A DNA stretch of 64,000 bases from an uncultured Kiloniellaceae bacterium (GTDB lineage Bacteria > Pseudomonadota > Alphaproteobacteria > Kiloniellales > Kiloniellaceae), in NCBI GenBank assembly GCA_947493695.1, contig CANLSF010000004.1:496001-560000 (forward strand), read 5' to 3'. The notes under the pieces are model-generated. The model was not told where the DNA came from, searched no databases, and was given only the letters and a program-made list of their open reading frames with translations. Below are positions 58,489 to 64,000 of the stretch, piece by piece. Made by a program: the position numbers and the translations under genes. How positions within the stretch are numbered: the first letter of the stretch is position 1; every line of letters begins with the position of its first letter.

Positions 58489-59304
58489 TTAGTGATTTTC
58501 CAAAAAAGAAATAATCGCGTCTTTTGCGCGTTCAGCATTTTCCAGGATGGACGAATTGACAATGGCATGACCATTGCCGGGTAACACCAAGGAGGTGGCA
58601 TCCGGACGGCCGTAGAACACCTGTCCGCAATGCTCACCGCGTTTAGCGGCGTACCAGGGGTCCTCGCCCCCCAAAATCGCCAGAACCGGCACCTTGATAT
58701 CTGACTTAATCCCGATATTGGGAGGCCGCCCCTGGCAGTGCCATCCGGTGATCACCAGCCCGGCCAGACCATTTCCGGGATAGTTCGCCACCGCCATGCC
58801 GCCCTCGCTGAAGCCCATGACAAAAACGCGCGATTGATCGATCCAGGGCAGCGTCCGGACCTGCTGGAGGGCGTAGTCTATCTCCTCAACCCGGTAGCGA
58901 TGCGCTTCCGGCGCAAGCGATGTGCGATGCTCCTCGAGCGAACAGTTGGAACGTCGGCGCGCGCGCGCAAAGCTGTCGGGAAAGAAGGTCGCATAGCCGG
59001 CTTCCATAAAAACGAGGCGCGCAGCTTCCTCTTCACGCGCAATCCCATTGCAGCCATGCAGAAAGATAATCGCCGCCATATCCGTACCACTGGGAATCTG
59101 CTGGATCCCGCGCTGAACGAAAGCGTCGCGCCATTTGCCCAGGATCGGCCGTCCGCCAAAGATATGACCGGGTATTGAGACGTGGGCGCGCTGCCAGGTC
59201 GCGCCTACTTCAGCAGACTCCGCCTTTGTGACAACCTCTGTACACAACATTATCGCAGTGACGAGCACCATCACTGCTCCGTTCCTCGTCATCCGCCGAT
59301 TCAT
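58489..59304 (-). CDS. Dienelactone hydrolase-like alpha/beta hydrolase, exported
   Basis: 271 residues. A signal-like N-terminus (about 8-30) is followed by an alpha/beta hydrolase core with IIFLHGCNGI, nucleophile Ser in GFSEGGMAVANYPG, Asp in LGGEDPWY and His in PGNGHAIV. The layout fits the dienelactone hydrolase family, though chlorocatechol breakdown is unlikely here. It is periplasmic or surface-bound if the signal is used. It diverges from the SH3-SHOCT gene with about 110 bases between starts. Confidence 0.82.
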   Translation of the reverse strand: MNRRMTRNGAVMVLVTAIMLCTEVVTKAESAEVGATWQRAHVSIPGHIFGGRPILGKWRDAFVQRGIQQIPSGTDMAAIIFLHGCNGIAREEEAARLVFMEAGYATFFPDSFARARRRSNCSLEEHRTSLAPEAHRYRVEEIDYALQQVRTLPWIDQSRVFVMGFSEGGMAVANYPGNGLAGLVITGWHCQGRPPNIGIKSDIKVPVLAILGGEDPWYAAKRGEHCGQVFYGRPDATSLVLPGNGHAIVNSSILENAERAKDAIISFLENH

Positions 59305-59418
59305 ACCCCGCCCCTGCCGCTTAGCTTGCCTGCTATTGTATGTGTCATTACAATAACAACAGATTCGACAAAAGCGGCGTTTAAAATTTTCGCATATTGA
59401 ATTTTGGGGGCAAGGTCT

Positions 59419-60774
59419 ATGGGTTTTCAGCGTGGCGCACTGGCATTTACGGGCGTAGTTGGAGCGGCAATTTCATTCTCCATTCCCGCCTGGGCCCAAA
59501 TGAGCCCTCCCCCTATTGGCGCAAAATACACATTCGAATGCTCCTCCAGTGTAAATGCCAATTATGAGGAAGTTTACTCGGTCATCGCCAGTGATGGTTC
59601 GACGATCCGCGTGGAAATTGACGACGGCATTGACCGGAATTATTACGAAAAGCCCCTCTATCTCTTGAACACGACGATTGCTACGAAACAGCGTATTCGT
59701 GGCCAGGAATCATCGATGTTCCAGATTCCCGGCGAATTCAGGCAACTTCAGTCTCTCGATATCGGTGGAAAGTACTCCGGGTACATCACTGAACGCCGCC
59801 GCAAGGAGCGCCTGGAATGGGACTACACCGTATCGGTCCTCGGTCGCGAAACCATTTACAATCGCGCTTTTGGTGACATCAAGATCATCAATCTGTCTGA
59901 GACACGCTGGGTGAATGTCTATTCTTCCAATCTCGATGTGCGTTATGCGCCGGAATTGAGCTTTCCGATAAGCTGGGAATACAAAGATTCCAACGGCGCC
60001 GAGGTGAGCTGCGAGCTGGCTGCAGCGCAAGGACTGGCAAATGTACCCGTTGCGGCCCTGCCCGGCGGCGCAGACCAAGAGTCACAGATCGCTCTGGTTG
60101 CGAGCCCACAGAGGATGCGTTCAGTCGCCAACGCAAACGTCCGCGAAGAACCTTCGCGTGAGGCTGAGCGGATCGGCCGCCTGGGCAACGGAACCCGGAT
60201 TTCCGTCTCCGGCTATGTCGATGTCAGTGGCGAGCGCTGGTACGCGCTTCCCCTGGATAACGGCACCACCGGTTACGTATTCGGCGGGGTTCTGAAGGAA
60301 GCAAAAGCGCCGGCGAAAACACCGGTCGCCGCAGCACCAAAGCCTAAGGCAGCCGCAAAAGCTCAGCCCGCCGCACCTAAAACACAGACCGCAGCGGTTA
60401 AGGCCCCTGCACCGTCAGCCTCACCAACACCTTCAGCCGCCAACAACACGGAGCGCATGAAGAGGTTGGATGAACTCCGTCGTCTCGATTTGATCTCAGA
60501 GGCCGAATACCAGCAGAAACGGCAAGCTTTGCTTGGCACAGGACAATCGGTCAACATTGCGGATCAGCTCCGAAAGACCAACACGCTGTTTCGACAGGGC
60601 AAGATCAATCCGGAAGAATTCGTCGAAGCCCGCGCCGGTATCCTTGCCAAGATCAACGCTCAGGACATGGATGCGAAACAAGGTCTTGTGCTCCTGAACA
60701 ACCTGATCAACGAGCGCCTGATTTCAGAAGCCGAATACAGCCGGAAGCGCGCCACCATGCTGGACGCGTTATAG
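59419..60774 (+). CDS. Exported SH3-domain protein with C-terminal SHOCT motifs
   Basis: 451 residues. Signal peptide (1-27, ending PAWAQ), then an unrecognised domain of about 190 residues, a bacterial SH3_3 domain (about 235-298, NANVREEPSREAERIG, GTTGYVFGG), an Ala/Lys/Pro linker, and at the end two SHOCT-like motifs (LDLISEAEYQQKRQALL and RLISEAEYSRKRATML). SH3_3 binds wall peptides; SHOCT is a short oligomerisation motif. A related SH3_3 domain is in the caspase protein encoded next to it on the opposite strand. AAGG precedes the ATG. Confidence 0.75.
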   Translation: MGFQRGALAFTGVVGAAISFSIPAWAQMSPPPIGAKYTFECSSSVNANYEEVYSVIASDGSTIRVEIDDGIDRNYYEKPLYLLNTTIATKQRIRGQESSMFQIPGEFRQLQSLDIGGKYSGYITERRRKERLEWDYTVSVLGRETIYNRAFGDIKIINLSETRWVNVYSSNLDVRYAPELSFPISWEYKDSNGAEVSCELAAAQGLANVPVAALPGGADQESQIALVASPQRMRSVANANVREEPSREAERIGRLGNGTRISVSGYVDVSGERWYALPLDNGTTGYVFGGVLKEAKAPAKTPVAAAPKPKAAAKAQPAAPKTQTAAVKAPAPSASPTPSAANNTERMKRLDELRRLDLISEAEYQQKRQALLGTGQSVNIADQLRKTNTLFRQGKINPEEFVEARAGILAKINAQDMDAKQGLVLLNNLINERLISEAEYSRKRATMLDAL

Positions 60775-60900: not shown

Positions 60901-63183
60901 CTAGGGACGCACAGCAAAGACAAAATCACCGCCCTCATGGCCCGCAAATCTCAAATCGGCATAATCGGGTGTCTGGTTGGCCGCCAGCATCACAGGGCGC
61001 CTGATCTGTAAGGCCAGTTCCGTGCCCTTCATGCTACCTCTATTGGATCTCAGCGCATCAAGAACCGCTTTGGCAAAGACAGAATGATTTCCGCCGCCGC
61101 CGTCGACAACCGGCTCGAGCCCGCCTGACGTCAGCACCACACGAACCCGTTTCTTCGAGAGTTCCCGTTCTGCTTCCGGTCCGCGCAGGGTCACCTTCAG
61201 TCCGCGTGTCAGCGTTCCCGAATAGCAACTGTCCACGATCAACATCGCTTGTTTTGCTTCAATCGCCTTCAGGCTATCCGTGATCGTAACGTTTGAAAGC
61301 CAGCTCACCTGACTATCGCCTGACGCATCGACCGGGAGCCAGAACCCCCGATCGGACTCCGTGTCCAGATAGCCGTGCCCAGCGTAATAAATCAGCAGAT
61401 TGTCTTTGTTCGTCAGCGATTTCCGGTAATCGTCCAGCGCCCGGATAATATCCGCGCGGGTCGCATCCAGCAGCAAGTTGACCTTGTAGCCATAGGCGTT
61501 CGTCAAGACCTGGCCAATTTCCCGCGCGTCGTTTATGGCGGTTTCCAGCTGCGGCAAGTGTTCGTAAGCGTTGATGCCGATCACCAGGGCATGATAACTC
61601 CCCGCCCCCTCGGTAACAGCTGGCTCTGCCTTTCGGGAGGTTTGGTCGGACTTCTTTGGCGCTGTTACGCTTTTGCTTGCACCGGCGGGTTTCGGAGCGG
61701 CCTGGAGGGCGGTTTGCGTTTTGGGTTGGATCAAGTCACCGAAGACGTAACCGATCCGTTCGTCCTGAGTGCTCACCATCACCCAGTTTTTGCCGACCAC
61801 ACGTCCCAGGACGGTAATACTGTCGCCCTGGCGCAAACCACCGATTCGACCGGCAGCAGCGGCAGGTGAGGCTCTGATATTCGCGTTCTTGGCCGCCGTG
61901 TAGATCGCGAACTCGGGCACAATGTCGGGGCGTTCCAGCGCGACTTCCGGCTCGGGCTCAGGAGCAGGCGTAAGAACGGCTGTCTGCTTTGGAGCATCAG
62001 GCTCTGAAGCTTTAGCTTCGGGTTTAGCCGCAACCTCCGCGCCACCGGGACGATAGCTCGTATCGACGTCAGGACTTGAAGGAGGTGTGTAGACCGGGTC
62101 AACTGCACTGGAATTCCCCGTGCCGACGCCTGCAGTTGCGACACTGCCCGTAGTGTTTTGACTGCCGGACGCACGAACCGCAACCACCGATTCTTCGCGA
62201 GAAAGAGATCGCCAGGCGTTAATTCGGTCATCAACCGATGCTATCTGACTTGAAGACAGTCGCTTGCGCGTACGGTTCACACCCGCTCGCGCCGTCGACA
62301 CCAAATCGTTCCGGCGTGCTTGCGTCGCCAGACGGTACCAGTAAAAGGCCTCTTCCCGGTTACGCTTTACGCCTTTGCCGTCCTCATAGAGTTTCGCCAG
62401 ATTGATCTGCCCTAGCGCCCAGCCCTGCTCGGCCGCAAGTCTGTACCATCTCGCAGCCTCTCGATCGTTTCTCGGGACCCCGTCACCTTTTTCGTACAGA
62501 AAACCCAGGTCGTTTTGCGCGCGGGCGAAACCATGGGCAGCAGCTTTATTGAACCAATCCACCGCCTTGGCCATGTCGCGGCGTACCTTGGAATCGCCCT
62601 GCTGATAAACCAGTCCCACCTTGTATTCTGAGAGCGGATAACCGCGCTGTGCTGAGGGCATAAACCACTTCAAAGCCTCGGCCAGATCTCTCTTTACCCC
62701 CCAGCCTTCAAGATACATCTCCGCGAGATGGGTCTGAGAACTGACATCCTCCAGGTCGGCGCCACGCCGATACCATTTCAGAGCTTCTGCCAGATTCCCG
62801 AGATCAAACTGATAGGTCCCACCTATGTTGGCGAAGGCAACCAGATAGCCTTTTTCCGCGACATCAAAGAGATAGGGTAATCCCTCATCCCTACGCTTTG
62901 CACGCAGAAGCGCACGACCAAGCTGATACTGAAACCTCAGTTCCTGAGGGTGCAGTTTCACCGCGTCTTCGCAGGCGCGGACAGCCTGTCGACCATTCAT
63001 GAGGTCCCAGGCCACGCCCTCCACGACGCGTTTCGTATCTGCAGGATGCGCAGCCAAACGATCACACGCCATGACTGGTGCTACAGCCTGCGCAGAAACA
63101 GCTCCTGCTCCTGCGAAAATAACAAAAGACATCGCAACAATGCGGGAGAAACTAAACAATGGCGTAGTTCCCAGGTGGATCAA
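60901..63183 (-). CDS. Exported Sel1-repeat, SH3 and caspase-domain protein
   Basis: 760 residues from a TTG start. N-terminal hydrophobic segment (about 14-34) with cleavage near VSAQA, then at least six Sel1-like repeats (about 100-310), a Ser/Pro/Glu linker, an SH3_3 domain (about 432-495, NANIRASPAAAAGRIG), and a C-terminal peptidase C14 domain (about 535-750). The catalytic dyad is His603 (YYAGHGY) and Cys653 (VDSCYSGT). This is a bacterial metacaspase-like protein, probably periplasmic, and may cleave after basic residues. Other starts (TTG 63159, ATG 63132) are possible. It lies 23 bases after the polyglycine gene on the same strand. Confidence 0.85.
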   Translation of the reverse strand: MIHLGTTPLFSFSRIVAMSFVIFAGAGAVSAQAVAPVMACDRLAAHPADTKRVVEGVAWDLMNGRQAVRACEDAVKLHPQELRFQYQLGRALLRAKRRDEGLPYLFDVAEKGYLVAFANIGGTYQFDLGNLAEALKWYRRGADLEDVSSQTHLAEMYLEGWGVKRDLAEALKWFMPSAQRGYPLSEYKVGLVYQQGDSKVRRDMAKAVDWFNKAAAHGFARAQNDLGFLYEKGDGVPRNDREAARWYRLAAEQGWALGQINLAKLYEDGKGVKRNREEAFYWYRLATQARRNDLVSTARAGVNRTRKRLSSSQIASVDDRINAWRSLSREESVVAVRASGSQNTTGSVATAGVGTGNSSAVDPVYTPPSSPDVDTSYRPGGAEVAAKPEAKASEPDAPKQTAVLTPAPEPEPEVALERPDIVPEFAIYTAAKNANIRASPAAAAGRIGGLRQGDSITVLGRVVGKNWVMVSTQDERIGYVFGDLIQPKTQTALQAAPKPAGASKSVTAPKKSDQTSRKAEPAVTEGAGSYHALVIGINAYEHLPQLETAINDAREIGQVLTNAYGYKVNLLLDATRADIIRALDDYRKSLTNKDNLLIYYAGHGYLDTESDRGFWLPVDASGDSQVSWLSNVTITDSLKAIEAKQAMLIVDSCYSGTLTRGLKVTLRGPEAERELSKKRVRVVLTSGGLEPVVDGGGGNHSVFAKAVLDALRSNRGSMKGTELALQIRRPVMLAANQTPDYADLRFAGHEGGDFVFAVRP

Positions 63184-63206
63184 AAGGCACGTCAGGGCCC
63201 TGCCGG

Positions 63207-63551
63207 TTACCAGCCACCACCGCCACCGCCGCCGCCGCCTCCTCCTCCGCCGCTGCCGCCGCCGTCTCCACCATTGCCGCCCTCACCACCACCTTCGAGA
63301 CCCGAACCCGCACGCGCAATCGGGTTATAGGGTTGGTGGCGTTTGTGGCCCGACGGCGCGGGGATCTGCATGGCAAGCAACTGCTTGGCAGGAAGGTTTT
63401 CGGTTCGTTCCGACCTCGAATCGGAGGTGACGATATGAGAGCCCGGAGCATGAGAGGCAGATAACGCAGATGCGCTATAGGCAACGAATGAGCCTGCCAT
63501 AACGAGGCTGGTCAGATACACCGCCTTTGATTTTCGGGATTTGTTTTCCAT
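63207..63551 (-). CDS. Small secreted protein with polyglycine-Trp tail
   Basis: 114 residues. GAGGAG seven bases before the ATG at 63551 is a strong ribosome site. The signal peptide runs to about residue 31 (SASALSA), a basic middle follows (PSGHKRHQPYNPIARAG), and the last 30 residues are Gly-rich and end in 13 consecutive Gly followed by Trp. The tract is encoded by CCN triplets on the plus strand and could change length by slippage. No family is recognised. The caspase gene is immediately downstream, so it may be its substrate or partner (inference). Confidence 0.62.
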   Translation of the reverse strand: MENKSRKSKAVYLTSLVMAGSFVAYSASALSASHAPGSHIVTSDSRSERTENLPAKQLLAMQIPAPSGHKRHQPYNPIARAGSGLEGGGEGGNGGDGGGSGGGGGGGGGGGGGW

Positions 63552-63760
63552 GAACCGACTCCTCGTAAAAAAACCGCCGACATATTCGGTTGCGACCATT
63601 CATATGCACGCATCCGACTATAGTCGTTTTTCGCAGAGATGGTCACAGATTTTATTCAAGAAGCAGAGGTCGACAGCCCGTTTTCCCTTTCAACAAGGAA
63701 AATCAGGTTTGAGTCAATCACCAAACATCAATCATGCGTTGAAGAAAGATGTAAACGGAT

Positions 63761-64000
63761 CTATCCGCCGATCAGTACAGTGGGGAAGCCAATGACAATC
63801 GTTCCGCCATGCGACATGGTATCGCCCATGCGGGCCGCCGGCATTTTTCCAATCAGACAGGTGGCAGAACCCTTGGCAATGACGTCGGGAGGTCCCACAC
63901 AGGTCGCCATATCGGTCGCCCGTGCTGCCGGCATTTTTCCGATTAAAACCGTGGGCTGCCCCTTAATGATCGGCCCACCGACATGGGGCACAATACCCGT
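63761..64000 (-). CDS. PAAR-domain protein, C-terminal part
   Basis: The gene enters from the right edge on the minus strand; 79 codons are visible and the start is outside. It has repeated PAAR-like units: GKMPAARATDMATCVGP, IAKGSATCLIGKMPAARMGD and GGTIVIGFPTVLIGG. PAAR proteins form the sharp tip of the type VI secretion spike or similar phage-like machines, and some carry effectors. The visible end has no effector extension. No T6SS gene is within the window, so its partners may lie just beyond the edge. Confidence 0.85.
   Translation of the reverse strand, partial: TGIVPHVGGPIIKGQPTVLIGKMPAARATDMATCVGPPDVIAKGSATCLIGKMPAARMGDTMSHGGTIVIGFPTVLIGG

Follow-up and report, generated by a model that had tools for sequence, protein, structure and literature searches.

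A small glycine-rich protein as a probable conserved partner of a predicted exported caspase-like protein across four bacterial families

A caspase gene and a small upstream gene kept together

The stretch of DNA analyzed here (the window) comprises 64,000 nucleotides (nt) of contig CANLSF010000004.1 from an uncultured Kiloniellaceae bacterium (assembly GCA_947493695.1; genome G000 in our sample). Its reverse strand encodes a predicted exported protein of 760 amino acids with Sel1, SH3, and caspase parts (positions 60901 to 63183), preceded by a gene for a predicted exported, glycine-rich protein of 114 amino acids that ends in a poly-Gly run and Trp (63207 to 63551). Gene neighborhoods and sequence comparisons indicate that the caspase and the small protein very probably form a conserved partnership. 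In total, we found 10 full-length caspase loci in nine genomes belonging to four genera and four families, the window included, and all of them carry a Gly-rich partner gene close upstream.

The same pair, in the same order, was found via the caspase in three congeners (an uncultured Kiloniellaceae bacterium, Pelagibius sp. Alg239-R121, and Denitrobaculum tricleocarpae), which by their coordinates are the genus members G002, G001, and G003 and were counted once. A caspase profile search of 385 genomes of the class gave eight full-length loci in seven genomes. Three of these loci (G000, G003, and G058) had supplied rows of the profile, and five were new (one each in G346, G143, and G421 and two in G423), every one of them with an exported-type Gly-rich open reading frame (ORF) close upstream. 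The pair was reached from two sides, by this profile search and by a class-wide scan for poly-Gly-Trp-stop endings, which led to a second family (G058). There, the Sel1-SH3-caspase is 54% identical to that of the window, and a small exported-type protein of 88 residues is encoded directly upstream.

In a scripted test, a Gly-rich ORF bearing the motif described below was present on the same strand, 6 to 105 nt upstream, at 10/10 full-length loci, at 0/33 other caspase ORFs, and at 0/418 control ORFs (ORFs of 300 or more codons, delimited mechanically and not taken from gene calls). The motif expression was formulated with the ten loci already inspected, so the counts for Gly-richness alone matter too; these were 10/10 full-length loci, 1/33 other caspase ORFs (L138, where the ORF lies 292 nt away), and 9/418 controls. 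The 33 other caspase ORFs comprise batches of 13 and 20, two of the latter (in L169 and L181) being additional caspase-like ORFs and not search matches. The class caspase search yielded 29 rows, nine of which represent the eight full-length loci and 20 of which are domain-only; 17 of these could be tested, the other three being L128, which lacks sequence upstream, and L140 and L172, in which the script identified no caspase ORF. The batch of 20 also drew on caspase-domain matches from the order, relatives', and phylum searches and on G023. Sel1-only matches in G013, G019, and G052 stand outside these counts.

A profile of the small-protein motif, searched against 11 genomes, gave ten strong matches (E value of 1e-15 or better), one per full-length locus; eight of these ten copies were themselves rows of the profile, and the remaining two come from close congeners. 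Inspection of the matches went down to an E value of 0.006, below which came eight weaker ones (E values of 0.06 to 0.48). Two candidates were discarded. A small-protein match on contig 86 of G058 (E value of 0.006) has no adjoining caspase, overlaps a longer ORF on the opposite strand, and is spurious, and a match in G025 (L008, E value of 6e-5, with one internal stop) yielded no ORF ending in Gly-Trp and was taken as chance. Rather than lying mostly away from caspase genes, the outcome that an earlier note on this DNA had named as speaking against the pairing, every credible small-protein homologue in the genomes searched adjoins this caspase (10/10 loci).

Wider searches outlined the distribution of the pair. 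Within the order, a profile of the small-protein core matched strongly in 4 of 61 genomes, all of the genus; the other matches had E values of 0.01 or worse, and none outside the genus was convincing. Among relatives around G143, G421, and G058 (76, 77, and 76 genomes, largely from the class sample), no new full-length caspase appeared at the cutoffs used, and in a phylum sample of 398 genomes it was not found in the other 397. The class and phylum caspase searches scored the best two candidates per genome, so that extra copies could be missed. None of the 95 plasmid records with a match spans 80% of the caspase.

A shared operon, in which the two genes are neighbors by descent with no functional link, is a very improbable explanation. 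The neighborhood is conserved within the genus, so the genus members alone prove little, but the pair is kept in four genera and four families while most other neighbors change, and the small gene is absent at the 33 other caspase ORFs. In addition, G023 has a Sel1-part relative that lacks the caspase domain, and the small gene is missing there as well, although this is one case.

Constant and variable parts of the small protein

The small ORF is preceded by a Shine-Dalgarno sequence, AGGAG (63559 to 63563, reverse strand), 7 bases ahead of its ATG. The N terminus begins with basic residues, continues into a hydrophobic core and the residues ASALSA, and resembles a Sec signal peptide by eye; the Gly-rich tail (63210 to 63296) closes with Trp114, directly after which comes the TAA stop codon. 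Basic residues ahead of the tail include Lys70, Arg71, and Arg80, with more farther upstream. The earlier note had read all of this correctly from the letters: a strong ribosome site, a 114-residue exported product with a poly-Gly and Trp end (its export signal being judged by eye), and several Arg or Lys sites before the tail. The protein had no match in Pfam (E values up to 0.1) or NCBIfam.

Upstream of the tail lies a conserved core of 21 residues, AMQIPAPSGHKRHQPYNPIAR (63312 to 63374, reverse strand), which contains the candidate P1 residues Arg71 and Arg80 and is identical in the genomes of the four genus members. In the six pairwise comparisons of its codons among these genomes, there were no differences at the first or second positions and 5 to 11 at the third. 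Such confinement of changes to third codon positions indicates that the small ORF is a translated and strongly constrained peptide. Beyond the genus, the constant part is a segment near the mature N terminus, a Gln followed by [ST]-G-x6-Y, found at 10/10 loci. An Arg occupies motif position 10 or 11 at 9/10 loci and position 20 at 5/10; Arg20 is the sole basic residue after the motif start in L051, as is Arg10 in L123. By eye, the motif starts at the predicted signal-peptide cut in the five loci of G058, G143, G421, and G423, and a spacer separates the two in the genus members and G346.

A Gly-rich stretch with a terminal Trp is present at 8/10 loci and varies in length. The earlier note had described the small protein by its poly-Gly-Trp tail, but this is not its constant part, as two loci of one genome (G423) have a partner of 336 to 338 amino acids without it. 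A DNA pattern of seven Gly codons, a Trp codon, and TAA or TGA occurred in 19 of the 385 class genomes (the reversed pattern gave 2 hits). The 19 ORFs comprise 2 from genus members, 15 large DUF2207-like proteins, the 88-residue protein of G058, and a doubtful one of 56 amino acids with a Gly-Trp end (L048), which was set aside. With 15 of the 19 being DUF2207-like, a Gly-run-Trp tail alone is neither rare nor specific. All 10 of the DUF2207-like ORFs that were scanned match Pfam DUF2207 models (L046, L047, L050, L052, L053, L056, L058, L059, L061, and L062, from G238, G135, G151, G179, G006, G321, G147, G391, G263, and G266, respectively). DUF2207 membrane proteins, which occur with this ending in many alphaproteobacteria, resemble the small partner in their C-terminal Gly run and Trp; they are large, however, and the partner matches no DUF2207 model. 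A C-terminal signal common to both is possible, and we found no account of one in the open-licence literature.

These features bear on a different reading of the pair, in which the small protein belongs to a structure or to the cell surface, as a Gly-rich matrix or adhesion peptide with the Trp tail as anchor or sorting tag, and the caspase processes other proteins of that structure, so that the two share a pathway but never touch. The Gly run and Trp end shared with unrelated DUF2207 membrane proteins would fit such a role, as would the variable length of the tail and its absence in G423. The strongest constraint, however, lies near the mature N terminus and not in the tail, and we regard a purely structural role as doubtful.

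The caspase domain and its putative active site

The true start of the caspase is uncertain, with a first possible start at TTG 63183 and an ATG at 63129, and the start position varies among relatives. Measured to the TTG, the gene begins 23 bases after the small-gene stop, the interval that had been reported for this Sel1-SH3-caspase. On the reverse strand, it encodes a Sel1 repeat region (approximately 62314 to 62808; PF08238, E value of 1.7e-36, in four stretches), a bacterial SH3 domain of the SH3_3 type (61729 to 61887; PF08239, residues 433 to 485, E value of 1.4e-9), and a Peptidase_C14 caspase domain (60988 to 61593; PF00656, residues 531 to 732, E value of 1.1e-24). The catalytic dyad is intact and sits where the first reading of the sequence had placed it, with His603 (61375 to 61377) and Cys653 (61225 to 61227) invariant in 10/10 family members; Asp651 stands two residues ahead of the Cys, in alignment with the DSC of Metacaspase-1. 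At the sequence level, the protein falls in family C14 (PF00656, 87.9 bits against a curated cutoff of 21.4), and L122, L123, L124, and L126 also pass. The model for EACC1-associated caspases (NF047832) gave 82.8 bits, below its curated cutoff of 140. In PADLOC, one caspase model matches the domain (E value of 3.2e-13); the small, SHOCT, and hydrolase proteins had no match in the same scan (E values up to 0.01).

Together with the dyad, Asp552, Asp651, and Asp694 (numbered on the 760-amino-acid protein) are invariant across 10/10 caspase domains. Profile and single-sequence searches returned Metacaspase-1 and MALT1 as the closest solved relatives. In MALT1, the P1 Arg is read by Asp365, Asp462, and Glu500 (available part of PMC4357240). 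Asp552 aligns with a MALT1 Asp that we take to be Asp365, and Asp651 aligns with the Asp two before the Cys in Metacaspase-1. The expectation of cleavage after basic residues is consistent with these invariant acidic residues at S1-pocket positions of MALT1 and metacaspases, a fit at the level of sequence only. From the dyad and acidic residues, we infer an intact paracaspase-like, Arg-directed endopeptidase.

Proposed mechanism

We propose that the two proteins are a dedicated protease-partner system in the cell envelope. Judging from its Sel1 and SH3 parts, the caspase would be periplasmic or located at the wall, and the small protein would be made just before it, probably from one transcript, given the close gene spacing. 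The conserved segment near the mature N terminus of the small protein may dock on the protease and offer its active site the conserved Arg (motif position 10/11 or 20). A cut at that Arg would part the motif from the Gly-rich tail, which mostly ends in Trp, and either set the tail free or lift a block from the enzyme. A contribution of the SHOCT protein and hydrolase described below to this process is proposed as well, at a step that we do not name. Cleavage of the small protein by the caspase is quite possible, though we hold it tentatively, and the same applies to the mechanism as a whole.

The genomic pairing would be expected equally if the small protein were a built-in inhibitor, pseudo-substrate, or secretion chaperone whose motif and Arg fill the active site until a signal removes it. 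Two further points are in keeping with inhibition, namely, that the small gene precedes the caspase gene and that clan CD offers a precedent in RgpB, whose prodomain places an Arg in the active site (PMC4357240, in its available part). A Gly-rich, Trp-ended tail kept at 8/10 loci has, however, no obvious role in an inhibitor, and we consider this explanation unlikely. We lean slightly toward cleavage rather than inhibition, since most members retain the tail and every one has an Arg in or just behind the motif.

A more specific version of the cleavage proposal is improbable as it stands. It holds that the small protein is an exported precursor, matured in the periplasm by a paracaspase-like enzyme that cuts after the conserved Arg, and that the freed Gly-run-Trp peptide serves beyond the cytoplasm as a signal, surface tag, or anti-competitor peptide; the SHOCT protein and hydrolase would complete a four-part module.

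Several points weigh against the partnership and cleavage proposal. The pair occurs in four genera only among the sampled genomes, with three of the nine genomes belonging to one genus and four to another, and the 16-nt spacing of the pair in G421 spans a gap of 10 N. Both G423 partners are long (336 and 338 residues), Gly-rich in their first half, and end in RQKP with no Trp tail. The position of the Arg differs between members, and this is weaker evidence than an invariant cleavage site would give. The match of Asp694 to Glu500 was placed by eye, as the MALT1 alignments end before the third acidic residue. Structure predictions for the caspase and SH3 region and for the SHOCT protein, made from four-row alignments, had predicted local distance difference test (pLDDT) values of 38 to 39 and were left unused.

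A SHOCT protein and a dienelactone hydrolase accompany the pair

The earlier note had proposed a two-part system; the partnership itself stood, but SHOCT and hydrolase genes go with the pair, so the set is larger. In the window, a predicted exported SH3/SHOCT protein with an unnamed conserved N-terminal domain is encoded at 59404 to 60774 on the forward strand, convergent with the caspase gene, and a predicted exported protein of the dienelactone hydrolase family lies at 58489 to 59304 on the reverse strand (PF01738, E value of 8.3e-13), divergent from the SHOCT gene. Both proteins have signal-peptide-like starts by eye. SHOCT is an oligomerization domain. The conserved N-terminal domain of the SHOCT protein, residues about 35 to 215, has no Pfam match.

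The three congeners, G421, and the two G423 loci all have both genes next to the caspase. In G346, one contig end carries the C-terminal SHOCT part next to the caspase, and another carries the N-terminal part together with the hydrolase. The contig end of the SHOCT fragment in G143 shares a 44-base overlap with that of the caspase contig, and we infer that the fragment lies about 9 kb from the caspase. In G058, the SHOCT and hydrolase genes sit on a contig other than that of the caspase. Across the class, the SHOCT N-terminal domain (E value of <1e-60) was detected in 8/385 genomes, which are all seven with the full-length caspase plus G279; the profile rows came from G000, G421, and G423 and none from G058, G143, G346, or G279. 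Co-occurrence with the caspase gave Fisher P values of 3e-14 by genome and 2e-8 by genus, uncorrected for relatedness. SHOCT and hydrolase genes are adjacent in 8/8 SHOCT-bearing genomes, divergently except in G421; the hydrolase is known from these SHOCT neighborhoods, the sample-wide search having been made for the SHOCT domain.

In G279 (C171, L165:23-2090), SHOCT and hydrolase genes stand side by side and a full-length caspase was not detected. From this genome, SHOCT and hydrolase may form a separate unit. In G023 (C9, L168:2578-4565), which belongs to the same taxonomic order as the window genome, a hydrolase relative (39% identical) sits immediately ahead of a gene related to the Sel1 part but devoid of a caspase domain, and neither the SHOCT gene nor the small partner was found within the 12 kb examined there. 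From this single case, the hydrolase may be tied to the Sel1 part and the small protein to the caspase part.

Relation to known systems

Bacterial gasdermin systems place a protease gene beside a small substrate gene. The pair described here is alike in having a protease beside a small gene; its partner, however, has a signal peptide (by eye) and, at the sequence level, no gasdermin match in Pfam (E values up to 0.1) or PADLOC (E values up to 0.01). Gasdermins with caspase-like proteases are reported for bacteria (PMC9079055, available in part).

Orthocaspases, or bacterial metacaspases of the Peptidase_C14 family, share with the window protein a His-Cys caspase domain and acidic pocket residues that fit a P1 Arg or Lys (PMC6426788 and PMC4357240, both as partial texts). 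In contrast to orthocaspases in general, the proteins analyzed here are full-length Sel1-SH3-caspases, a subfamily that carries an export signal and has a dedicated small partner. A 2012 survey of bacterial caspase homologues described many operon types, with 70 of 217 operons lacking an assignable function, and the pairing of an exported caspase with a small Gly-rich partner was not met in its available part (PMC3501461).

Another related case is MaOC1, an orthocaspase associated with a toxin-antitoxin module that acts on the product of a neighboring gene at basic residues, according to the accessible text (PMC7935541). Here, the product of the neighboring gene is a candidate target from the gene neighborhood. 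The target of MaOC1 is an antitoxin and was tested in Escherichia coli (PMC7935541, same portion). The genes analyzed here, by comparison, encode export signals, and the partner is Gly-rich and matches none of the scanned families. Caspase homologues acting on the product of a neighbor are already known, and an exported caspase with a Gly-Trp partner, as predicted from sequence, appears to be new within that kind. We found no account of such a pair, or of the four-part set, in the open-licence literature, which is weak evidence.

Genome comparison gives one caspase subfamily a single, dedicated, very small candidate partner with one or two candidate Arg sites, and whether that partner is substrate or inhibitor becomes directly testable with two purified proteins. 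The predicted export signals point to a caspase pathway outside the cytoplasm, with two further accompanying proteins. Periplasmic maturation of the small protein, if true, would be a kind of bacterial caspase pathway for which the literature searched gave no description.

Other neighboring genes

A PAAR gene lies directly upstream of the pair, at 63761 to 64000 of the window. Past the window end (L026, G000:C4:557000-576000), a type VI secretion system (T6SS) cluster follows, with TssJ-, TssK-, TssL-, and TssM-like genes and TagF-, phosphatase-, and kinase-like genes, all assigned by eye except PAAR. PAAR stands beside the set in 3/3 congeners, and the end of the kinase-like gene was seen in 2/3 flanks. 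At the loci of other families, no T6SS gene was recognized by eye in the surrounding 10 to 18 kb. An assignment of the pair as a T6SS component or effector pair was set aside, as the linkage is not kept at those loci.

Two further genes were noted in these neighborhoods. In Pelagibius sp. Alg239-R121 (L022:1385-3607), a formylglycine-generating-enzyme-like gene appears by eye to carry an extra N-terminal caspase domain, which the copy in the window genome, also judged by eye, does not have. In G058, a DUF4384 protein is encoded just upstream of the pair (L051:5538-6749); DUF4384 genes are frequent near caspase-like genes.

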